Positions 9,557-26,617 of a DNA stretch of 30,303 nt are shown in pieces. The notes beneath the pieces are model-generated. The model was given only the letters and a program-made list of their open reading frames with translations, did no database searches and was not told the DNA's origin. The DNA is from a virus. Positions within the stretch are counted from its first letter, which is position 1. Each line of letters starts with the position of its first letter. A program made the translations under genes and the position numbers. The stretch spans positions 1 to 30,303 of the IMG/VR virus record IMGVR_UViG_3300026201_000150, one strand, 5' to 3'.

Positions 9557-10708
9557 ATGAATAAAGTGATTGAACAATTAATGACAAAATTTCCAAAAAA
9601 GACTGAATTTACAGCTAAGATGATTAAAGAAGCTGCTATTGCTGTGGGTGAGAATCCTAGATCAGCTTATGTAAATATCAGATATACAAACAATGCACCT
9701 ACGGTACGTCGCGGTGTATATAACTTAGAATCTATGATGCCAAAATCTGCTCGACCAGCCAAAGCTGCTCCTGAAATGGTCAAAGGCGTTGAATCAGTTT
9801 CAAATGACGAAGTCTTTGTTCCTGATTTTGATCCTACTTTTGTTCCATGGGGTAACTTCTCTGAAATTGTAAAAGTACTTAAGTCAGGTATGTTTTATCC
9901 GACTTTTGTATCTGGTTTATCTGGTAATGGTAAGACATTCCAGATCGAACAAGCATGTGCTAAACTTAATCGTGAATATGTACGTGTTCAGATTTCTCCT
10001 GAAACAGACGAAGATGATCTAATCGGTGGTTTTCGTCTGATCAAAGGTGAGACTGTTTTCCAAAAAGGTCCAGTCATCAAAGCTATGGAAGCTGGTGCTG
10101 TCCTTATGATTGACGAGATCGATCGTGGAACAAACAAAATTATGTGTTTACAAGGTGTGCTTGAAGGCAAACCAGTTCTGATCAAAAAGACTGGTGAAGT
10201 TGTTGAGCCTGCCGATGGTTTCAACGTGATTGCGACTGCAAACACAAAAGGTAAAGGTTCAGAGGATGGACGTTACTCAGGAGCAACTATCATTGATGAT
10301 GCTTTCCTAGAGCGTTTCACTATTACTCTTGAGCAGACTTTCCCTACTATGGCAACTGAAGAAAAAATTGTCATGAAGCATATGTCAAAGTTTGAAAAGG
10401 TTGACGAAGAATTTGCTAAGCTACTTGTTGGTTGGGCAGATGCTATTCGTAAGACTTTCTATGATGAAGGTATTGACGAAGTTATTTCAACTCGTCGTTT
10501 GTGCCACATCGTTCAGACTTTCTCTATCTTCGGTAAGAGAGACAAAGCGATTGCTCTTTGTGTAAACCGTTTTGACGATGACACTAAAGAAGCTTTTATA
10601 GATCTTTACGAGAAAGTTGATGCTACTATCAATGAGCCTCAGCTAACAGCTGATGAAGCCGAAGATTCATTCTTTAGTAATCACGCTGATGAGTGGGAGG
10701 ATGAATAA
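9557..10708 (+). CDS. cobS: CobS-like MoxR-type AAA+ ATPase
   Basis: This 383-residue protein is a MoxR/CobS-type AAA+ ATPase. An N-terminal region (1-95) precedes Walker A GLSGNGKT (120-127), Walker B AVLMIDEIDR (181-190), sensor 1 FNVIATANT (222-230) and an arginine-finger-like FLERF (250-254). Marine T4-like phages commonly carry such a gene, usually annotated cobS, a cobaltochelatase subunit of B12 synthesis. MoxR ATPases also act generally as metal-insertion or remodelling chaperones with a VWA partner, and that partner follows directly. Arg is mostly CGT here, unlike the AGA-rich neighbours. True cobalt chelation is not shown. Confidence 0.88.
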   Translation: MNKVIEQLMTKFPKKTEFTAKMIKEAAIAVGENPRSAYVNIRYTNNAPTVRRGVYNLESMMPKSARPAKAAPEMVKGVESVSNDEVFVPDFDPTFVPWGNFSEIVKVLKSGMFYPTFVSGLSGNGKTFQIEQACAKLNREYVRVQISPETDEDDLIGGFRLIKGETVFQKGPVIKAMEAGAVLMIDEIDRGTNKIMCLQGVLEGKPVLIKKTGEVVEPADGFNVIATANTKGKGSEDGRYSGATIIDDAFLERFTITLEQTFPTMATEEKIVMKHMSKFEKVDEEFAKLLVGWADAIRKTFYDEGIDEVISTRRLCHIVQTFSIFGKRDKAIALCVNRFDDDTKEAFIDLYEKVDATINEPQLTADEAEDSFFSNHADEWEDE

Positions 10709-10804
10709 TCTGGCACACCAACTCGCCGCATCTGGACCAGTAAATAGTTGTACAACTGGTCCAAAACGTGATATAATGTACACATAACGAATTAAAAAAG
10801 GAAA
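10709..10804 (+). repeat. Promoter-containing element, copy 2 (before the VWA gene)
   Basis: Second copy of the element at 9456-9550, beginning immediately after the ATPase stop codon. It holds a perfect 9-bp inverted repeat, TGGACCAGT (10733-10741) and ACTGGTCCA (10755-10763), with a 13-nt loop that contains the palindromic -35 region GTTGTACAAC. In copy 1 the arms are shortened to 6 bp. Confidence 0.85.
10748..10777 (+). promoter_or_regulatory. Promoter for the VWA gene within element copy 2
   Basis: TTGTAC (10748-10753) is 18 nt upstream of TATAAT (10772-10777), with ACGTGA before the -10. It is followed by AAAAAAGGA and ATG 10809. The -35 lies in the loop of the inverted repeat. Confidence 0.7.
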
Positions 10805-10808
10805 TATT

Positions 10809-12965
10809 ATGAATTTATCAGCTCAAGAATACCTAGCCAAACTACTTGCCAAAGAGAACTTATCGGTTCAACATGGCAACTATTCTACAGCTAGTTTCGA
10901 TGTTGAGAATAGAGTACTTCGTCTTCCTCTTTGGAAAGACAAAGGTAAAGACGTTTATGATCTTTTAGTTGGTCACGAAGTTGGCCATGCTCTTTATACT
11001 CCAGCTGATGGATGGCACGATTCTGAAAAGAAGATTGGTAAGATTCCACGTGCATATCTTAATATCGTTGAAGACATCCGCATTGAACGTAAGATCATGC
11101 AAACATATCCTGGTATCGTTCGTCGTTTCAAGAATGGTTATAAAGTTCTTTTCGATAGTGATCTTTTTGGCACTAACGAGAGAGATATCAACAAGGCTGG
11201 ACTTATGGACAGACTTAATGTTTCTTCAAAAGGCCGCGGTTATGTTCCAGTTGAATTCTCTAATGAAGAATCTCCATTAGTTAAAGAAGCTATGGAAGTT
11301 GAAACATGGGATGACGTTGTTGCTGTTTGCAAAAAGCTTTATGATTTTATCGAAGATCAAAAAGATCAAGAAGAAGAAAAAGATGAAATTGAAATGGGTA
11401 TGCCAAGTGCTGACGAGGGTGAATCTCCTAAGGACGAAGGTGAAACTCCTATCTCTGGTGATGAGGAAAGCAATGACTCTGGTGAAGGTAATGGTGATTC
11501 TGATGGTGAAGATGAATCTAACGAAGAGCCTACTAGTGCCGAAGTTGCAGATGATAAAGCTCCTGAAGGTCATGAGACTTGGACTGAAGATACTCAAAGA
11601 GAACGCGAAGAAGATTTACTTGAAAAATCTCCTGAGCGTCAATACGAAAGAAGTGGTCAGCCTGAATACTCAAGCGGCATGAGCGATGAGAATATCGAAA
11701 AGATTCTTTACTCTTACGATTATGCTAAATCATTACGTGATGAGTATGTAGAAGATTTGATGGGTGAAAAACTTCGTTATGGTGATGAGAACGCTTATAC
11801 TCACGTAGCTTGTAGAGAAGATTACAATGAGACTAAACTAGTTTACAAGCAACAAGCAAATCTTATGGCGAAAGACTTCGAACGTAAGAAAGCTGCATTT
11901 GAATATTCTCGTGCAACAACTGCTAAGTCTGGTAAACTTGATCCTTTAAAGCTTCATGCTTACAAAACTTCAGAAGATATTTTCTTGACTACTACTCAGT
12001 TAGCTCAAGCAAAGTCACACGGTATCGTAATGTTCCTTGATCTTTCTGGTTCAATGTGTGAGATCATCGAAGATGTTACTGCTCAAGCAATTACTATTGC
12101 TATGTTCTGTCGTCAAGTTAATATTCCTTTCGAGGCATATAACTTTACTTCTACTTCATACTGGAGAGAACGTGGTAAGGGTATTCGTGAGATGGAACAT
12201 AAAGCTGGCGAGTTGCATTCTGACGGTACTAAAGTTGTTGAGATGTTCTCTTCAAAGATGAATAAGAAAACTTTTGACGAAGCTGCTTATGTTTCATTTG
12301 CTATTGCCAAGGCACATAGCTACAATAACAAGCATACTAGCTACCATATATCTGGTCACTATCTTCATGCTCTTGATGCTATGGGTTCAACTCCTCTTAT
12401 CCAAACTGCAATGCTTGCAGCTAAATTGACTAAGGCATTTACACGTAAACATGCAATACAAAACACAAACATTATGTTCCTAACTGACGGATATCCTGAT
12501 GGAATAAATGTTGAACGTGATTCATCTGCTACTGTTATGACTTCACGTGAGACAATGATTAACTTTGAAGGTAAACTGATACGTGGTCAGGGTGGTCGTA
12601 AGATCTATGAGGCTGTTCTTCACAGACTTAAAGAGATAACTGGTGCAACTATTATGGGTTTCCACCTTGCGTATGATGCATCTACTTTCGGACAAGGTTA
12701 TGTTAATGTTGATGAAGACAAAAACTTTCCTGATGTAATCAAATCTTGGAGAAAACTTGGTTTCGGTGCTTGGAAAAATGTTAAAGGTTACGATGACTAT
12801 TTCATTATTAAGATCAATCGTTCAGCAAGGTTTGACTCTGATGTGTTTGAGCCTAAAAAAGCTGACACAATCAATGATCTTAAACGTGAGTTCAAGAAGT
12901 TTGCGAAGACTAAGAAAGGCAACAAGCAATTAGTTTCACGTATTACTGATGCGGTTGCTGCATGA
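10809..12965 (+). CDS. cobT: CobT-like VWA-domain protein with N-terminal HEVGH metallopeptidase-like motif
   Basis: This 718-residue partner of the MoxR ATPase has three parts. The N-terminal domain carries HEVGH (56-60), a zinc-metallopeptidase-like HExxH, followed by LNIVEDIRIERK. A disordered, Asp/Glu/Ser-rich linker spans about 188-270. A C-terminal von Willebrand A domain has the MIDAS motif DLSGSM (near 412-417) and FLTDGYPDG (near 557). This order resembles CobT of the aerobic cobaltochelatase, which pairs with CobS. The HExxH points to a peptidase-related fold, but activity is unproven. CGT codons dominate for Arg, and the stop overlaps the next start by 4 nt. Confidence 0.85.
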   Translation: MNLSAQEYLAKLLAKENLSVQHGNYSTASFDVENRVLRLPLWKDKGKDVYDLLVGHEVGHALYTPADGWHDSEKKIGKIPRAYLNIVEDIRIERKIMQTYPGIVRRFKNGYKVLFDSDLFGTNERDINKAGLMDRLNVSSKGRGYVPVEFSNEESPLVKEAMEVETWDDVVAVCKKLYDFIEDQKDQEEEKDEIEMGMPSADEGESPKDEGETPISGDEESNDSGEGNGDSDGEDESNEEPTSAEVADDKAPEGHETWTEDTQREREEDLLEKSPERQYERSGQPEYSSGMSDENIEKILYSYDYAKSLRDEYVEDLMGEKLRYGDENAYTHVACREDYNETKLVYKQQANLMAKDFERKKAAFEYSRATTAKSGKLDPLKLHAYKTSEDIFLTTTQLAQAKSHGIVMFLDLSGSMCEIIEDVTAQAITIAMFCRQVNIPFEAYNFTSTSYWRERGKGIREMEHKAGELHSDGTKVVEMFSSKMNKKTFDEAAYVSFAIAKAHSYNNKHTSYHISGHYLHALDAMGSTPLIQTAMLAAKLTKAFTRKHAIQNTNIMFLTDGYPDGINVERDSSATVMTSRETMINFEGKLIRGQGGRKIYEAVLHRLKEITGATIMGFHLAYDASTFGQGYVNVDEDKNFPDVIKSWRKLGFGAWKNVKGYDDYFIIKINRSARFDSDVFEPKKADTINDLKREFKKFAKTKKGNKQLVSRITDAVAA

Positions 12966-14893: not shown

Positions 14894-14922
14894 ATGTACT
14901 TTTGACATTTGTGTGGTATAAT
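14894..14922 (+). promoter_or_regulatory. Promoter for gene 44 operon: TATGTAC box + TATAAT
   Basis: ATGTAC (14894-14899) is 17 nt upstream of TATAAT (14917-14922), preceded by TGTGTGG. This copy is nearly identical to the promoter at 13644-13672 across box, -10 and the following AATACCATA. Confidence 0.75.
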
Positions 14923-14954
14923 AATACCATACAAAATTATATTATGAGGTATTC

Positions 14955-16033: not shown

Positions 16034-16340
16034 ATATTCAAACATAACACCGTACAGAGAAACTAATAATTTCTTTGCATCACCAACTCTTTATGAGAAC
16101 ATAAGAGATTTTTTATTAGATGAAATAATCGAAGTTTGCTTTACTAAAAAGAATGGCGACGAGCGTAAGATGTTATGTACGCTAAAGTCTGAACATATCC
16201 CTGCTTATAATGCACCAATATTAGAAGATGAATCGGGTACTGTAGAGAATAAATCTTATATGAATGTATTCGATGTTGAAAACAATGGATGGAGATCATT
16301 TCTCATTGATAATGTTAAATACATAAAGACTAACCTATGA
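16026..16340 (+). CDS. WYL_2/SH3-barrel-type small protein (DUF2693-like)
   Basis: This 104-residue protein has the pattern KKNGDERKMLCTLKSEHIP (41-59), then VFDVENNGWRSFLIDNVKYI near the C terminus. That matches the small SH3-like barrel family once called DUF2693 (WYL_2), common in T4-like phages, where RNA or protein binding is assumed but unproven. It is coupled on both sides by overlaps (8 nt and 4 nt), between the membrane peptide and the methyltransferase. Confidence 0.7.
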   Translation: MTKYSNITPYRETNNFFASPTLYENIRDFLLDEIIEVCFTKKNGDERKMLCTLKSEHIPAYNAPILEDESGTVENKSYMNVFDVENNGWRSFLIDNVKYIKTNL

Positions 16341-16939
16341 CGAATGAAAATAAAGTAATAGATTTCTTTACTGGTAAACCATACTCTCAAGAGAAATTTG
16401 CCAGACATCCAACCTCTGGATTTGTATTGGCCGATAGAGTTGTTGAAGAGATTACTAAACTTAATGTTAACCCATTAGTTATCGACGCTGGTTGTGGTAT
16501 TAATCCATTCAAAAATATGTTTGATAACATTATTGGATTTGATGCAGCACCATATCCTGAAGCAGACTTCCAAGCAACATTCCATCAAGCGCATCACATA
16601 TTTAATAGAGAATTTGCTGATGTTGTCTTTGCATTAGGATCATGTAACTTCGGTACAATGGAAGAGAATCTATATTATTTTGATTACTTTATGCAATGGC
16701 TAAAACCTGGCGGAATATGTGCAGTAAGAGTTCACATTGACAGAAAACCAGAAGCACATCACGATGGCATAACTTATGTACCATGGACAATAGACACTGC
16801 AGATAAATGTGCACATGAATGGTTTAAGAATTATTTTGATGTAGTAGAGATGCATATTGAAACAATGACTAAACCGCCTTACTCTAAATTAGCAGTATGG
16901 ATATGGAAAAAGAAAAAGCATATTGGAGCATCACGTTGA
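16337..16939 (+). CDS. Class I SAM-dependent methyltransferase-like protein
   Basis: The 200-residue protein has the Rossmann motif I VIDAGCGINPF (48-58), an acidic loop at IIGFDAAPYPEADF (65-78), motif IV-like ADVVFALGSCNFG and a later WLKPGGICAVRVH (motif VI-like). It lacks the DPPY/NPPY motif of amino-DNA methyltransferases and the PC motif of cytosine-C5 enzymes, so a small-molecule or other target is more likely. It is inserted between clamp-loader genes 44 and 62; its TGA overlaps the predicted TTG start of gene 62. Confidence 0.75.
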   Translation: MTNENKVIDFFTGKPYSQEKFARHPTSGFVLADRVVEEITKLNVNPLVIDAGCGINPFKNMFDNIIGFDAAPYPEADFQATFHQAHHIFNREFADVVFALGSCNFGTMEENLYYFDYFMQWLKPGGICAVRVHIDRKPEAHHDGITYVPWTIDTADKCAHEWFKNYFDVVEMHIETMTKPPYSKLAVWIWKKKKHIGASR

Positions 16940-17307: not shown

Positions 17308-17698
17308 TTTAGTCAATTGGTCACCGGAGATGATGCTAGAAGTTAAACTAGCAGAACCCGATGATTTTTTAAAGATCAGAGAAACACTAACACGCATGGG
17401 AGTAGCATCCAAGCGTGACTCTCAATTATTTCAATCATGCCATATCTTGCATAAGCAAGGTAGGTATTTTATAACTCACTTTAAAGAGTTATTCTTATTA
17501 GATGGTAAGCCATCAAACCTAACAGAAAATGACATTCAAAGACGTAATACAATTGTTACACTCATGTCTGACTGGGGATTATTAGAAACTGTTAAACCTA
17601 TTGGAGAAACTGCTCCATTAAATCAAATAAAAATAATATCACATAAAGAAAAAGGCGATTGGGAATTATGCCCCAAGTATAATATTGGAATAAAATAA
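17288..17698 (+). CDS. regA: Translational repressor RegA
   Basis: This is the T4 RegA family, an RNA-binding repressor that blocks ribosome access on many early mRNAs, including its own and those of clamp-loader genes. Residues 17-136 align with T4 RegA (122 aa): LEVKLAEPDDFLKIRETLTR, FQSCHILHKQGRYFITHFKE, RRNTIVTLMSDWGLLE and a C-terminal WELCPKYNIG. The N terminus is about 15 residues longer; internal ATGs at residues 15/16 would give the T4 length but lack a well-spaced ribosome site. It overlaps gp62 by 20 nt and the next gene by 1 nt. Confidence 0.95.
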   Translation: MADNKDSLVNWSPEMMLEVKLAEPDDFLKIRETLTRMGVASKRDSQLFQSCHILHKQGRYFITHFKELFLLDGKPSNLTENDIQRRNTIVTLMSDWGLLETVKPIGETAPLNQIKIISHKEKGDWELCPKYNIGIK

Positions 17699-18504
17699 TG
17701 AAAATGATGACGTATCAATACTCCGACGGAGATATTGATTTACACTATGATTATATATTTGTGCAAAGATGCCCAGAGATATTTGTTAAAGCTCTAAACA
17801 GTATGAATATTGTTAAGAGTATAAACTTTCAAGAATGCTATGAGAAGCACGGAGTCTGCACAATCCAAACACGTTCAGAATCACCCGTAGAAACATATGA
17901 GTTTGACGACTTTGTTGAAGGCATGGATGCTGGCCAAGGTAAAAATTATCAAATCACTTATATAAAAACACCTGATCAAGATATAAAAATAATTAATGCA
18001 AGTATATCTTATGAAACTGAATTGGACCCAGAAATTCCTTTGAGGAAGTATATCCGATCATGGGAACGAGAACAACAAATTAAATTTGCGGACGCTTACC
18101 CTGAATTGGACCCAGATGAAATATTAGATACATTAGGTGTAAATGTACACAAAGCTTGGAAAATTAATTTACCAATTTCATCAAGAATAATTACAAGAGA
18201 TATATACCTTAGTCAAGCATGCGAAGTTTTAGATTTAGTTACTGATGACAATACTGTTCTTGTTGCTGATCTACACTTCGAAGATAATTATTTACCTGAA
18301 GATGTAATGTTAAAACCTAGAGGTTTAATAAATCATGCAAGTAATGTAGATTCATTTAAACTACCACCAGAAAAGGGTGGTGAATGGATAAGTTTACAAA
18401 AAATTATAACTACAGAAAATAGCAATATAGATATATCTAAAGTGATATGTAAAGAACAAGAAGGAGTTCCGTTTGGACATCATCCATTAGAATTTGAAAT
18501 TTAA
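17698..18504 (+). CDS. Unknown protein with a MazG-like sequence patch (268 aa)
   Basis: I do not recognise the family. The protein is acidic, beta-rich at both ends, and contains an odd middle: ELDP occurs twice (from a 16-nt direct repeat at 18017-18032 and 18101-18116). Immediately after the second copy comes LDTLGVNVHKAW, nearly identical in protein and DNA to part of the MazG gene at 26678-27268. There is no signal peptide or membrane segment. The start overlaps the regA stop by 1 nt, and tctA starts 3 nt after its stop, so it sits at the head of the transporter island. Confidence 0.7.
   Translation: MKMMTYQYSDGDIDLHYDYIFVQRCPEIFVKALNSMNIVKSINFQECYEKHGVCTIQTRSESPVETYEFDDFVEGMDAGQGKNYQITYIKTPDQDIKIINASISYETELDPEIPLRKYIRSWEREQQIKFADAYPELDPDEILDTLGVNVHKAWKINLPISSRIITRDIYLSQACEVLDLVTDDNTVLVADLHFEDNYLPEDVMLKPRGLINHASNVDSFKLPPEKGGEWISLQKIITTENSNIDISKVICKEQEGVPFGHHPLEFEI
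18017..18116 (+). repeat. Internal 16-nt direct repeat pair in the unknown gene
   Basis: CTGAATTGGACCCAGA occurs at 18017-18032 and again at 18101-18116, in the same reading frame (ELDP). The copies are 84 nt apart and the second abuts the MazG-like patch. Confidence 0.8.
18123..18159 (+). repeat. 37-nt near-exact repeat, copy A (matches MazG gene)
   Basis: This segment matches 26899-26935 at 36 of 37 positions, the last 29 identical, in the same reading frame. It encodes LDTLGVNVHKAW. Confidence 0.9.
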
Positions 18505-18507
18505 ATT

Positions 18508-19929
18508 ATGATTACACATTTGTTATTAGGGACCATTTTTGGTCTCATTATTGGAATTATACCCGCTGCTGGAGCTACGACAGGTCTTGTCATTCTATTT
18601 GGCTTCATGCATTTATTCTCAGATCCTTATCTTGGTGTTGTCTTTTGTATGGCAGCAGTCGCAGCATCTACTACAGGCGATACATACACTGGAGTTTTAT
18701 TAGGAATTCCTGGTGCAAACTCATCCGCTGCTACAATGGTAGATGGTTATCCATTAGCTAAACAAGGCAAAGCAACATATGCTTTAACTGCAGCAATCAC
18801 AACAAGTACTGTTAATGGTCTCTTATGGGGAACACTTACGTTTGCTTTACTCCCTTGGTATATGAAACTTATGATGATCTTTGGGGTACCTGAACTATGG
18901 GCATTTACTATGTTAGCTCTTGCTTGTGTAGGATTTGTTAGTAATAGATTTTGGGTAAGAAGTATAATTGCAATAATACTCGGTTTATTTTTAGGTATGA
19001 TAGGAGTAGATCCAGTTACAAATGCCGATCGTTGGACATTTGGTTGGGATTACTTAGCAGATGGTATTCAGATTATGCCGATGGTTGCTGGTCTATTTGC
19101 TATACCTGAAATATTAGATGGACTAAAACAGGGTAAAGCTACAACACAACCACACGACACATCAGGACAAACATGGGATGGAATTAAAGCAACATGGAAA
19201 TATAAATGGGATGCATTAAGAGGTGGAGCAATAGGTGCATTTGTAGGATTCTTGCCAGGCATTGGTGGCGGTGTTGCTGATTGGATGGCATACGGTTCAA
19301 CATTAGCTACACATCCTAACGAAGAGTTTGGTAAAGGAAATATACGTGGAGTGATTGGACCAGAAGGATCTAACAATGCTCAAAAAGCAACAAGTATGAT
19401 TCCAACAGTTTTATTCGGAATTCCTGGTGCTTCATTCGCAGCAGTACTCATAGCTTTGTTTATGTATTTAGGATTTGAATTAGGCACAGTTGATTTAGCC
19501 TATGATTTAAGATTTTTTGATAGCCTTACATATGGATTTATGTGGGGTACGGTATTAGTTGCATTTATATGCATAGCTTTAAATAAGTATCTTTGCAGGA
19601 TATCTTATGTACCGTATAAGTATTATTTTCCGTTACTCGTAGGTTTTATTGTATGGGCTTGTACTCAATACACTGGCGGGTGGGAAGATTATGTAATCTT
19701 GCTTATATGTTCTTTTCTGGGTGTCTTTGGAAAAGCGTATAAGTATAGTAGACCTGCCATGTTAATGGCGTTCATTTTGAGCTACAAGGTCGAAACGTTG
19801 ACTCTTCAAATGAGTTCTCTATACACTTGGGAAACTTTGATGACGAGGCCAATATTTTTAGGTTTAATAATATGTATTGTATTATTATTTTGTTTATCAT
19901 TGAAGAAGAATAAATTGGAGTATTCATGA
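18508..19929 (+). CDS. tctA: TctA: large permease subunit of a tripartite tricarboxylate transporter
   Basis: This 473-residue, very hydrophobic protein is a TctA-family permease, the 12-helix membrane subunit of TTT transporters that import citrate, other carboxylates or related small compounds using ion gradients. Family features are the Gly-rich IIGIIPAAGATTGL (14-27), GDTYTGVLLGIPGANSSAAT, a second Gly-rich GFLPGIGGGVADW (near 246) and IPTVLFGIPGASFAAVLI. Length is slightly below the usual ~500. It is followed with a 4-nt overlap by TctC; I find no TctB (the small four-helix subunit). It would act in the host inner membrane. Confidence 0.95.
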   Translation: MITHLLLGTIFGLIIGIIPAAGATTGLVILFGFMHLFSDPYLGVVFCMAAVAASTTGDTYTGVLLGIPGANSSAATMVDGYPLAKQGKATYALTAAITTSTVNGLLWGTLTFALLPWYMKLMMIFGVPELWAFTMLALACVGFVSNRFWVRSIIAIILGLFLGMIGVDPVTNADRWTFGWDYLADGIQIMPMVAGLFAIPEILDGLKQGKATTQPHDTSGQTWDGIKATWKYKWDALRGGAIGAFVGFLPGIGGGVADWMAYGSTLATHPNEEFGKGNIRGVIGPEGSNNAQKATSMIPTVLFGIPGASFAAVLIALFMYLGFELGTVDLAYDLRFFDSLTYGFMWGTVLVAFICIALNKYLCRISYVPYKYYFPLLVGFIVWACTQYTGGWEDYVILLICSFLGVFGKAYKYSRPAMLMAFILSYKVETLTLQMSSLYTWETLMTRPIFLGLIICIVLLFCLSLKKNKLEYS

Positions 19930-20963
19930 AGAAATTATTAGCACTATGCCTAGCGGCATTAACTACAACAGCAATTGCCGACTACACATTTGTTGTGCCA
20001 CAGAAACCTGGCGGTGGAACGAGTGTATGGACACAAATCGTTGCTGATCAACTTGAACCTTTCTTAGGAGAGAAGATAGTTATACTACATCACCCAGGAG
20101 CAAGAGACATTCCTGGATTTAACAAATGGCACAATGAAATGAGAGACGATGACAAAGTTGTTATGGTTTCACACGGTGGTAATGGTGTATCATTTTTACA
20201 AGAGAATGTAGACTATAACTATGGTGATTACGAATCAATTGGGCTTATGAATCTAAATATTATTGCCGGTAAACGTATTGGTGCTGATATGGATTTCCCT
20301 AAATTTGCTTCGGGATCTGGTCAAACACCAGAAGCTTGGGCATTTACACAGTTAATATGTGGTCCAGACAAGACTATGCAAGAATATGCTGCCTGCTTTG
20401 AAGAGCATGTAACGTGGGTAAGCGGTATGTCTGGCGGAGAACGCAGACTTGCGTTTAAACGTGGAGAGTTAACTGGTACAAGAGAGAATCCAGCGGCATA
20501 TAAGAAACACGTGGCTGGAGATGAGAACGCTGAAATGTGGTTTCATCATGGTATACTTCAAGCAGACGGAAGTCATGCCGATGATCCTAACTACCCAGGA
20601 TTTCAATTCGAAATCTTATTTGAAGAGAGATGGGGTGTGGCACCTTCTGGAGAATTCTATGATGCCTATAAGCTTGTGAAGTCATTTCGTGATGGTATGC
20701 AAAAAGCATTATGGGTAAACAAAGGTAATCCAAATGCATTCGAATTACAAAATGCATTAACTAAAATGAGTCAAGATCCTGATGCTGTTGCAGCTATTCA
20801 AAAGAAAGTTGGTCAATATGACTGGCTTATCGGAGAAGCTGGTAATAACCATCGTGATACACTTATGACATTTATTACTGCCGAAGCTTTACAGAATCTT
20901 GTATGGTTTAATACAGAAGCTTTAGGTATAGCAAGTGTATATAAAGAAGGTCTTGTTAAGTAA
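19926..20963 (+). CDS. tctC: TctC-like periplasmic substrate-binding protein (Bug family)
   Basis: The N terminus MKKLLALCLAALTTTAIA is a signal peptide with an AIA cleavage site after residue 18. The mature 327 aa begin with YTFVVPQKPGGGTSVWTQIV, the substrate-loop pattern of Bug/TctC binding proteins, and include MVSHGGNGVSF and YESIGLMNLNIIA, close to the usual size of about 320. TctC delivers carboxylates to TctA in the periplasm. It overlaps tctA by 4 nt, so the two are coupled. Its ligand cannot be read from the sequence. Confidence 0.88.
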   Translation: MKKLLALCLAALTTTAIADYTFVVPQKPGGGTSVWTQIVADQLEPFLGEKIVILHHPGARDIPGFNKWHNEMRDDDKVVMVSHGGNGVSFLQENVDYNYGDYESIGLMNLNIIAGKRIGADMDFPKFASGSGQTPEAWAFTQLICGPDKTMQEYAACFEEHVTWVSGMSGGERRLAFKRGELTGTRENPAAYKKHVAGDENAEMWFHHGILQADGSHADDPNYPGFQFEILFEERWGVAPSGEFYDAYKLVKSFRDGMQKALWVNKGNPNAFELQNALTKMSQDPDAVAAIQKKVGQYDWLIGEAGNNHRDTLMTFITAEALQNLVWFNTEALGIASVYKEGLVK

Positions 20964-21615
20964 TCTTGACAATTTAAAAGAAAGGTCAGAGTATCATTTT
21001 GACCCATTCGATAATAATCCTGCTCATGATACCATACGGTATGTGGGCAGGTTTAATGGTGATTGGAGTAAAGAGTTACAAGAAACAATAGAAAGTAGCA
21101 CAGAAGTTACATGGCGAACTCGTAATCCAAATTCAAACCGTTCTGAACAAGAATTTGAATCAGAAGAATATGATATTAAAAGAGCTGGTGGAGATCCTAA
21201 TCATCCAATAGGAAATATGAATTATGATCTTCTTCCTGTATTCCAGAAAATGGCTGATGCTCTTTATTTAGTTGATGGTGAACGTCCAATACAATCTAGA
21301 GTACATACACAAACACAAGGTCAAGTCTGGTCTTTGCATATAGATAAATTAAATAAATATGCTCCAAAAGATCCGGATAGTGTATTTAGATTTTTTATTA
21401 TGTTAAACGATTGGGAACCAGGACACTTTATACAGTTTGGAAACTATATGCATACAGGTTATAAAGCAGGAGAGATTTATACATTTGATTGGTATAATGT
21501 TCCTCACTGTACAGCTAATGCTGGATTAAGCCCGAGATCTAATTTACTGGTCACTGGAATAGCTACAGAAAAAACATATAAATTACTTGCAAATCCTAAG
21601 GTAATTTCGATATGA
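20935..21615 (+). CDS. 2OG-Fe(II) oxygenase-like (aspartyl/asparaginyl hydroxylase-type), copy 2
   Basis: The 226-residue frame has a cupin-like metal triad: His135/Asp137 in SLHIDK, His191 in VPHCTANAG and Arg201 as a 2-oxoglutarate ligand (SPRSNLL). FRFFIMLNDWEPGHFIQFG and AGEIYTFDW fit the aspartyl-hydroxylase-like branch better than the P4H-like branch. The start is uncertain: GTG 20935 overlaps TctC by 29 nt, and TTG 20953 is an alternative just after AAGAAGG. The substrate is unknown. It sits between the transporter and a sulfotransferase-like gene. Confidence 0.75.
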   Translation: MYIKKVLLSNLDNLKERSEYHFDPFDNNPAHDTIRYVGRFNGDWSKELQETIESSTEVTWRTRNPNSNRSEQEFESEEYDIKRAGGDPNHPIGNMNYDLLPVFQKMADALYLVDGERPIQSRVHTQTQGQVWSLHIDKLNKYAPKDPDSVFRFFIMLNDWEPGHFIQFGNYMHTGYKAGEIYTFDWYNVPHCTANAGLSPRSNLLVTGIATEKTYKLLANPKVISI

Positions 21616-22706: not shown

Positions 22707-23096
22707 ATGGCATATTCAGAAAAAGTTTTAGATCATTACAATAATCCACGCAATGTGGGTAAAATGGATATGAAAGACCCAAATGTGGGAACTGGTATGG
22801 TAGGTGCTCCTGCTTGTGGCGATGTTATGAAATTACAAATACGTATAGAAGAAGGTATTGTCACAGATGCAAAATTTAAAACATATGGTTGCGGATCAGC
22901 AATTGCTTCAAGCTCATTATTAACAGAATGGGTGAAAGGTAAAACAATACATCAAGTAGAAGAAATTAAAAATACTGAAATTGTTGAAGAGCTTAATCTG
23001 CCTCCAGTAAAAATCCACTGTAGCGTATTAGCAGAAGATGCTATTAAATCAGCAGTTGCAGACTATATTAATAAACAACCAAGGGAACATAGATGA
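22707..23096 (+). CDS. iscU: IscU iron-sulfur cluster assembly scaffold
   Basis: This 129-residue protein has full IscU length and all key residues: Cys37 and Asp39 in APACGD, Cys62 in YGCGSAI, His104/Cys105 in KIHCSVLA, plus the LPPVK motif (98-102) that HscA recognises to trigger cluster release. IscU builds [2Fe-2S] on its cysteines with sulfur from IscS. With every ligand and the chaperone motif kept, it probably works with the host IscS and HscA/HscB. The window has no IscS. It overlaps the next gene by 4 nt. Confidence 0.95.
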   Translation: MAYSEKVLDHYNNPRNVGKMDMKDPNVGTGMVGAPACGDVMKLQIRIEEGIVTDAKFKTYGCGSAIASSSLLTEWVKGKTIHQVEEIKNTEIVEELNLPPVKIHCSVLAEDAIKSAVADYINKQPREHR

Positions 23097-24103: not shown

Positions 24104-26617
24104 ATGAATCAATCTTTTTACACGTCAGCCTTCCGACACGGGAAGGTCATCAAGTATTTGGGTTACGAGGATGGCAAGAAAGTTTCTTTCACTGTCCCGT
24201 ATCGCCCTACTCTATTCGTTACAAGCAAACAAAACAATCCTCATGATTGGCATGCCTTAGATGGTACGCCAGTAGAACCTATAGTATTTGGTTCTATGGG
24301 TGAAGCTACTGACTTTATTAAGTCTTATGCAGACGTACCTAACTTTAAAATCTATGGCAATACCAACTATGTGTCACAATATCTTAATGATGAATTCCCT
24401 GGTGTAATCAAATGGGATCGTAACACAATCAATGTTACCTCAATCGATATTGAGACAAAGTTCGGTGATGGTTTCCCTGATCCTAAAGAAGCTGATCAAG
24501 AGATTACAGCAATCACAATGAAGAATAACATCGATGATACTTACTACACATTTGGGTGTGGCGAGTATGATGTAGATAATTCTATCATGCAAACCCATTC
24601 CGTGATCTATGTCAAGTGTGCAGACGAGAGAGAACTATTACACAAATTTGTATATCATTGGTCTAAGACTTCCCCTGATATCGTTACAGGTTGGAACTGT
24701 GAATTCTTTGATATACCATATCTCATTAACCGTATAAGACGTATCTTTGACAATGGTCGTGAGAAGTTCTTATCTCCTTGGCGTATGATTGATGAGCGTG
24801 AGACTCATACAGGTTATAATCAAACCGCAGTTAAATATGAAATCAAAGGTGTAGCCATCTTAGATTACATGGCAATATTCAAGAAGTTTGGTTATTCATA
24901 TGGTCCACAAGAATCATACAAGTTAGATCATATTGCAAATGTAGTTCTCGGTGAGAAGAAGCTTGACTTCGGTGAAGCATCTGACCTTAACGAATTACAT
25001 GATACAAACTATCAGAAATTTATTGACTATAACATCAAAGACGTAGAGCTAATCGATCGTATGGAAGACAAGCTTGGTCTTATTAGTCTATGTCTTACTA
25101 TGGCTTACAAAGGTGGTGTGAACTATGAACAGGTTCTCGGCACGGTGGCTATATGGGATTCACTGATCTATCGTGACTTGCATGCTAAACGTGTAGCTGT
25201 ACCACAAAACGAAGAATCATTTAAAGGTGCATATCCTGGCGGTTATGTAAAAGAACCACATATTGGTATGCATGATTGGGTATGTTCATTTGACTTGGCT
25301 TCTCTATATCCGTCAATCATTATGCAATACAATATGTCTCCCGAGACTATCTTACTTGATGATGAGCCTGGTGTAAATGTAGAATCAGTCTTAGCTGGTC
25401 ATATAAAAAATACTAAACCAGGCACGGCATTAGCTGTAAACGGTGTTCGATTTAGAACAGACAAGCCTGGCATTATTCCATCAATTATTCAAGAGATCTA
25501 TAACGATCGTCAAAAATTTAAACAAGCACAACTCAAAGCTGAGCAAGAGCTTGAATTGTGTGGTGTTAAATCAGAGATGTATGCATTAGAAAAACGTATT
25601 GCTATTGCTAAGAACCAACAAATGGCATTAAAAATCCTACTCAACTCTTTGTATGGTGCAATGGGTAATAAGTGGTTTAGATACTTTGACATGCGAATCG
25701 CTGAAGGTATTACACTTACTGGTCAAGCAACTATTCGTTGGGCAGAGAATAATTTGAATGATTACCTTAACAAAACTCTACAAACCAAGAAAGATTATGT
25801 AGTTGCCATTGATACAGACTCTGTCTATGTTTGTCTTAACGAGTTTGTCAAACGTCTTGGTCCAGCCAAACCAGTAGACTTCCTTGACCAAGTATGTTCA
25901 GGTGCATTAGAAGGTGCACTCAGTGAATGTTATGATCGTTTGTTTAAAACCTTAGGTGGTATAGAAAACAAAATGGTTATGGAACGTGAGGTAATTGCTG
26001 ATCGTGGTATATGGACAGCAAAGAAGAGATATATCCTTAATGTGCATGATAATGAAGGTGTTCGTTATACTACACCGAAGCTTAAGATTATGGGCATCGA
26101 GGCAATCAAATCATCTACTCCGGCCATATGTCGTGAAGCATTAAAAGATATATTCCGTAGGATCATGGAAACAGATGAGGCAACCGTACAGGCAGACATA
26201 GCAAACTTTAAAGCAGCATTTAAACAAGCGTCTGCTGAAGAGGTGAGCTTTCCTCGTGGTGTAAACAATCTAAAGAAATGGACTGACAAGGAAAACATTT
26301 ACAAGAAAGGCACACCTATTCATATTCGTGGTGCAATACTACACAACAATCTAATTACTACACAAAAATTAGGTAGAAGTATTCAGCAGATAACTAGTGG
26401 TGACAAGGTCAAGTTTACATATCTTGTCAAGCCAAATCCAATCAAAGAGAATGTGATTGCATTTGTAGATTATCTCCCACGTCAATTTAAACTTGAGAAA
26501 TATATAGATTATAATCTACAATTCGAGAAGACTTTCTTGGGTGCTATCGATCCTGTTTTAGAAGCAATTGGATGGACCAGTGAGCATCAAGTATCACTTG
26601 AAGATTTTTTCGTATAA
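24104..26617 (+). CDS. 43: DNA polymerase gp43 (family B)
   Basis: This is the T4-type replicative polymerase with proofreading. Exonuclease motifs are Exo I SIDIETKFG (113-121), Exo II VTGWNCEFFDIPYL and Exo III YNIKDVELIDRM. Polymerase motifs are A DLASLYPSI (near 396), B KILLNSLYGAMGN (near 509) and C IDTDSVYV (near 569). The length of 837 aa is below T4 gp43 (898) but similar to marine relatives. The C-terminal LEDFFV looks like a clamp-binding tail. T4 gp43 represses its own translation at its mRNA leader; the predicted leaderless start here would leave no such operator. Confidence 0.97.
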   Translation: MNQSFYTSAFRHGKVIKYLGYEDGKKVSFTVPYRPTLFVTSKQNNPHDWHALDGTPVEPIVFGSMGEATDFIKSYADVPNFKIYGNTNYVSQYLNDEFPGVIKWDRNTINVTSIDIETKFGDGFPDPKEADQEITAITMKNNIDDTYYTFGCGEYDVDNSIMQTHSVIYVKCADERELLHKFVYHWSKTSPDIVTGWNCEFFDIPYLINRIRRIFDNGREKFLSPWRMIDERETHTGYNQTAVKYEIKGVAILDYMAIFKKFGYSYGPQESYKLDHIANVVLGEKKLDFGEASDLNELHDTNYQKFIDYNIKDVELIDRMEDKLGLISLCLTMAYKGGVNYEQVLGTVAIWDSLIYRDLHAKRVAVPQNEESFKGAYPGGYVKEPHIGMHDWVCSFDLASLYPSIIMQYNMSPETILLDDEPGVNVESVLAGHIKNTKPGTALAVNGVRFRTDKPGIIPSIIQEIYNDRQKFKQAQLKAEQELELCGVKSEMYALEKRIAIAKNQQMALKILLNSLYGAMGNKWFRYFDMRIAEGITLTGQATIRWAENNLNDYLNKTLQTKKDYVVAIDTDSVYVCLNEFVKRLGPAKPVDFLDQVCSGALEGALSECYDRLFKTLGGIENKMVMEREVIADRGIWTAKKRYILNVHDNEGVRYTTPKLKIMGIEAIKSSTPAICREALKDIFRRIMETDEATVQADIANFKAAFKQASAEEVSFPRGVNNLKKWTDKENIYKKGTPIHIRGAILHNNLITTQKLGRSIQQITSGDKVKFTYLVKPNPIKENVIAFVDYLPRQFKLEKYIDYNLQFEKTFLGAIDPVLEAIGWTSEHQVSLEDFFV

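Follow-up and report, generated by a model that had tools for sequence, protein, structure and literature searches.

A 30,303-bp virus record (the whole stretch of DNA analysed here, hereafter the window) belongs to a T4-like phage and carries, among its replication genes, an adjacent gene pair encoding a TctA permease and a divergent TctC solute-binding protein of the TTT family. We propose, at a probability of about 0.6, that this pair is a mobile phage cassette: a two-gene TTT transporter that works without a TctB of its own and imports a carboxylate during infection.

The replication genes of the window lie on one strand in the order uvsW, gp55, gp47/46, gp45, gp44, gp62, regA, hsp20 and gp43. 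By core genes, the nearest isolates are Phage C48C1 (Kyanoviridae), cyanophages, pelagiphages and Methylophilales phages, at approximately 45–52% identity. The interval from regA to hsp20 comprises a 268-aa ORF, tctA, tctC, a 226-aa ORF and a 187-aa sulfotransferase-like ORF (Table 1). The 268-aa ORF matched neither Pfam nor PHROG, and the 226-aa ORF had no Pfam match; in 41 of 81 loci, drawn from different lineages, a homologue of the sulfotransferase-like ORF is found no more than three genes away from tctAC. An earlier note on this DNA, made from its letters, had placed the pair between regA and gene 43. It had delimited both ORFs correctly and regA does lie on the left, but the right-hand flank is hsp20, with gene 43 several genes further on, and the 268-aa ORF precedes tctA.

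Table 1. Features of the tctAC cassette and its phage flanks, in window coordinates
Feature	Position	Strand	Basis or remark
regA, left phage flank	17288..17698	+	PF01818, E = 2.1e-41; phrog_242
268-aa ORF between regA and tctA	17698..18504	+	8 cluster members (c38/X268), few close relatives only
tctA, TTT-family permease, 473 aa, without C-terminal TctB half	18508..19929	+	PF01970
tctC, TctC/Bug-fold predicted periplasmic solute-binding protein, 345 aa	19926..20963	+	AlphaFold fold, profile
ATGA overlap of tctA stop and tctC start (4 bp)	19926..19929	+	sequence
226-aa ORF 3' of tctC	20935..21615	+	homologues near tctAC in other lineages too
sulfotransferase-like ORF, 187 aa	21612..22175	+	PF13469, E = 2.3e-4, under curated cut-off
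hsp20, right phage flank	22234..22692	+	PF00011; directly after regA in relatives without tctAC (L249)
gene 43, family-B DNA polymerase	24104..26617	+	PF00136 and PF03104; nearest isolate Phage C48C1, 49%

Several other features of the window were recorded. A 12-pair hairpin, TTTGTGTGGTATAATAATACCATACAAA, lies at 14908–14935, just 5' of gp44, and a promoter scan returned fewer sites than were found in shuffled sequence. A methyltransferase-like gene at 16337–16939 has homologues within three genes of tctAC in 65 of 81 loci, again from different lineages, a count based on a broad cluster. Two genes are associated with Fe–S assembly: an IscA-like gene (2349–2657, read from the sequence) and a NifU-like gene (22707–23096, phrog_8429). 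Upstream of the replication genes, the region 9557–12965 encodes an AAA ATPase and then a von Willebrand-type protein, judged CobS/CobT-like by eye; many relatives retain the ATPase, at 59–75% identity.

The tctA product matches PF01970 at 320.4 bits (E = 1.9e-95; curated cut-off 28.9 bits) over profile positions 4–422 of 423, a full-domain match that agrees with its earlier description as a complete-looking TctA. The signature of TctA proteins is a duplicated motif, G-Hy3-G-Hy3-G-Hy2-P-G-Hy-G (PMC5812351). A looser form, G...G...G..P..G, occurs at residues 8 and 239 of the window protein and twice in each of 32 phage TctA proteins (32/32); the first copy reads P-A-A-G in the window and P-G-A-G in many relatives. 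Loss of essential residues, which the earlier note had named as a possible objection, was not seen: the protein keeps 49 of the 58 near-invariant residues (those with 90% or higher conservation across 57 cellular TctA proteins). Its AlphaFold model is nearly all helix (pLDDT 83, pTM 0.85). A Foldseek search of this model against the PDB gave no match under E = 0.001, and no solved structure was a convincing relative by sequence; the fold thus supports the assignment no further than Pfam does.

Identification of the TctC partner required a different route. The tctC product had no match in Pfam, NCBIfam or PHROGs; PF03401, the profile by which the earlier note had proposed to recognize it, matched neither the window protein nor any of the 39 phage TctC members (0/39). 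The AlphaFold model (pLDDT 90.6, pTM 0.87) has as its top 17 PDB matches only TctC/Bug proteins (E = 3.9e-10 to 2e-7), including MatC, TphC, BugD, Bug27, TBP and Rpa4515, and phmmer and the profile both place BugD first. A profile of the phage proteins matches cellular TctC (best E = 4e-27), and several of the cellular proteins found in this way themselves pass the PF03401 cut-off. Together, the fold and these matches identify the product as a divergent TctC, in agreement with the identity first read from the sequence. A putative Sec-type signal peptide, MKKLLALCLAALTTTAIA/D, was assigned by eye, and an N-terminal hydrophobic segment is seen.

The two genes recur together. Within IMG/VR, 425 viral stretches encode this TctA, and this tctC has no fewer than 98 relatives. 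In 79 of the 81 loci holding both genes tctC directly follows tctA, the two are adjacent in 67 of 69 loci of a second, partly overlapping set, and 67 of the 84 loci measured show an overlap of 4 or 8 bp between the end of tctA and the start of tctC; the ATGA overlap in the window may couple their translation. Both genes are intact and under purifying selection, with dN/dS of 0.04–0.15 for tctA and 0.04–0.34 for tctC and no internal stops. Their third-position GC (0.25–0.26) is that of the phage itself. Selection, recurrence in phages and phage flanks, all features of a phage auxiliary metabolic gene, bear out the presence of an intact TctA–TctC pair in a T4-like replication module. The collection of isolate phages contained no close relative of this TctA and no copy of this TctC; the statement that phages rarely carry such transporters therefore holds for these isolates but not for uncultivated phage contigs, where the pair is common.

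Absence from isolates is also what an assembly chimera, or a host fragment miscalled viral, would predict. This explanation is close to negligible, as the regA–(X)–tctA–tctC–...–hsp20 order of the window's lineage recurs on many separate contigs and a close relative, L249 (regA 85% and gp43 77% identical), has no tctAC and approximately 105 bp between regA and hsp20. A chimera of host and phage DNA, raised at the outset as one way to refute the observation, was rejected on the strength of this recurrence and the empty site. The corresponding site in Phage C48C1 holds only two small ORFs. In a scan of regA loci, tctA was found in one of 65 with enough downstream sequence, and that one (L248) is the closest (regA 93%). 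This distribution, with the empty sites in L249 and C48C1, indicates that the cassette is an insertion in one clade. The single genome match in GTDB (L097:1–7878, CAJQJC010000036.1), binned in a Pelagibacter MAG, was considered as a host copy. That reading was rejected, since the contig within the MAG is itself from a phage; this too speaks against a miscalled host fragment. The contig carries tctA, tctC, homologues of the 187-aa and 226-aa ORFs and a methyltransferase, and so a GTDB reference genome contains phage DNA.

Turning to cellular relatives, we searched 385 genomes from the class of the Pelagibacter MAG, 297 from its order and 398 from its phylum. The best matches to phage TctA were permeases of 642–698 aa, scoring 305–353 bits as against 226–300 bits for separate permeases. 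Phage TctA aligns to approximately residues 17–490 of these longer proteins at 33–37% identity, beyond which they extend by a C-terminal tail of approximately 160–180 aa with several TM segments. A profile of the tail matches 12 stand-alone ORFs beside separate TctA genes (E down to 1.3e-24), and individual tails give weak PF07331 matches along the length of that family; from these matches we identify the tail as TctB. TctA–TctB fusions have been described as rare (PMC5812351). Where flanking sequence is available, the fused genes adjoin a long TctC, mostly 353–430 aa. The phage TctC profile matches these proteins mostly at 1e-10 to 1e-27, compared with approximately 1e-4 at best for TctC beside separate TctA, and on a SAR11 contig (L154) it picks out both long TctC proteins and not the TctC of a separate TctABC operon. 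By score, the nearest cellular subfamily of the phage pair is the fused TctA–TctB permease with an adjacent long TctC.

The end of phage TctA coincides with the point at which the fused permeases continue into TctB. The earlier note had remarked on a missing TctB, and neither the tail profile nor PF07331 detected one in the 30-kb window. The tail profile likewise matched no phage ORF in the other loci or in a contig (G002) that spans 146 kb in a lineage whose nearest isolates reach approximately 350–490 kb, and PF07331 matched none of 12 phage records (0/12), which are possibly incomplete. Being closest to the fused type and having no detectable TctB, the phage pair is a relative of that type that lacks TctB. 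A tree of 86 TctA rows gives phage TctA a long branch, is compatible with a position inside or outside the fused clade, and does not reject grouping with separate TctA (AU p = 0.64). A direction of change, with TctB lost from a fused ancestor, may be suggested, and the tree fits "lost" and "never had" alike. As a tentative reading, possible but not one we would favour, a TctA–TctB fusion shed its TctB half to give a working TctB-independent TTT cassette that is now widespread and moving horizontally among phages. If so, TctB is dispensable and several phage lineages share one carboxylate import route.

The missing subunit could instead be borrowed, with the phage supplying a fast-evolving or rate-limiting TctC and TctA and taking TctB, or a whole TctAB, from its host. 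TctA-type permeases occur in 134 of the 297 genomes from the order of the Pelagibacter MAG (the fused kind in approximately 13), and the subunit would thus be available in a potential host. Binning and subfamily hint at SAR11 as that host. No TctB was found in the phage records examined, as borrowing would also predict. We nevertheless consider host complementation unlikely, since TctB is covalently joined to the permease in the nearest subfamily, making a free partner unusual, and the phage's own TctA is under strong constraint. Replacement of TctB by a small membrane protein of the phage or its host is more improbable still. The candidate is DUF6552, a protein of 73–98 aa with approximately three TM segments, encoded within two genes 3' of tctC in 15 of 81 loci (for example L076:4637–4870, L053:4192–4413 and L050:7671–7937) and elsewhere in three further records. 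The window has no copy of it, nor do 8 of 12 records; it often lies distant from tctAC, is shorter than TctB and is not matched by the TctB profile. As most records lack it, DUF6552 was rejected as a general TctB substitute.

The preferred reading, a transporter operating without its own TctB, also includes movement between phages. The 146-kb contig G002 encodes TctA and TctC that are 67–68% identical to those of the window, whereas its gp43 and gp46 are only 25% and 27% identical, respectively, and its gp43 is closest to those of the jumbo phages Phosso and Atu_ph07. As tctAC is more alike than the replication genes in this comparison, the pair appears to have been transferred between phage lineages, although stronger constraint on tctAC could account for part of the gap. 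The neighbours of tctAC in the G002 lineage include genes for an AMP-binding enzyme and a radical SAM protein, together with an ORF that has an SSGTTG motif (L029:7702–8868; L042:8840–9823; cluster c22, e.g. L038:2371–3051), surroundings that suggest a biosynthetic island.

What the cassette carries can be approached mainly through gene context. Phage TctC is 25–28% identical to cellular TctC, and at this distance a ligand cannot be transferred from the cellular proteins. Locus L152 of SAR11 encodes a fused system together with TcuA, an FAD-dependent tricarballylate dehydrogenase (568 bits against a cut-off of 369), two genes of the PrpF family, AcnA and a dehydrogenase of the isocitrate/isopropylmalate type; in locus L154 a fused system lies near another TcuA. 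Our best guess for the SAR11 fused subfamily is a tricarboxylate substrate. For the phage, these SAR11 neighbours are no more than a hint, and the best guess is a tricarballylate- or aconitate-like acid.

In the mechanism that we infer from sequence and predicted structure, TctC would be exported to the periplasm via its signal peptide and bind a small carboxylate, which TctA would carry across the inner membrane, driven by an ion gradient and without TctB; the infected cell would thereby keep or raise organic-acid uptake during phage production, to the benefit of the phage. Retention of the pair under strong selection in hundreds of ocean phage fragments indicates that it probably serves carboxylate import for the phage. 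Some TctC/Bug proteins are sensors, and envelope proteins carried by phages often alter the surface. The pair might accordingly act in something other than feeding, such as sensing, export, effects on membrane energy or exclusion of other phages, and its methyltransferase- and sulfotransferase-like neighbours are not transport genes. We give such roles little weight, because both permease motifs, the residues common to phage and cellular TctC and the strict A–C pairing fit transport.

If import is correct, organic-acid uptake by a substrate-binding-protein transporter joins the tools of phages in at least two very different lineages. No TctB has been characterised so far (PMC13390454); with no known function for TctB, a natural, selected TctA–TctC pair lacking it makes the need for this subunit directly testable.

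Among known systems, the cellular fused TctA–TctB with long TctC of Alphaproteobacteria, including SAR11, is the best sequence match for both phage proteins. Its TctA half aligns end to end with phage TctA, and R174, R179, G180 and E181 are among the invariant residues common to its TctC and that of the phage. It differs in gene order, C–AB in the cell and A–C in the phage, and in its TctB half of approximately 160–180 aa, which the phage lacks. Classical TctABC (Salmonella type, TC 2.A.80) shares with the phage a PF01970 permease, a TctC-fold protein and the signature motifs, but has a TctB, and the phage proteins score lower to separate-gene permeases and their TctC. Structures of Bug proteins, MatC and TphC superpose on phage TctC at TM 0.50–0.57 by query length with 12–14% identity over the aligned fold, the phage protein being longer (345 aa).

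Phage-borne TTT genes, as here, have been noted in passing on marine viral contigs: tctA on SUP05 single-cell viral contigs, in a one-line mention as "protein domain hit only" (PMC4164917), and genes for "tricarboxylate transport" close to norB/nirK on a scaffold from an OMZ myovirus (PMC8115048). Neither report deals with the pairing to TctC, the loss of TctB, selection or spread, and what appears new here, as judged against openly available journal papers, is the pair as a mobile, selected TTT variant without TctB. Viruses carry other uptake genes as well: an Ostreococcus virus has one for an ammonium transporter, and OMZ phages have focA/amtB (PMC8115048). The present cassette would share a role in nutrient uptake, an auxiliary metabolic function, with these genes, which belong to other families and are mostly single subunits. 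The same comparison applies to PstS, which is carried by cyanophages.
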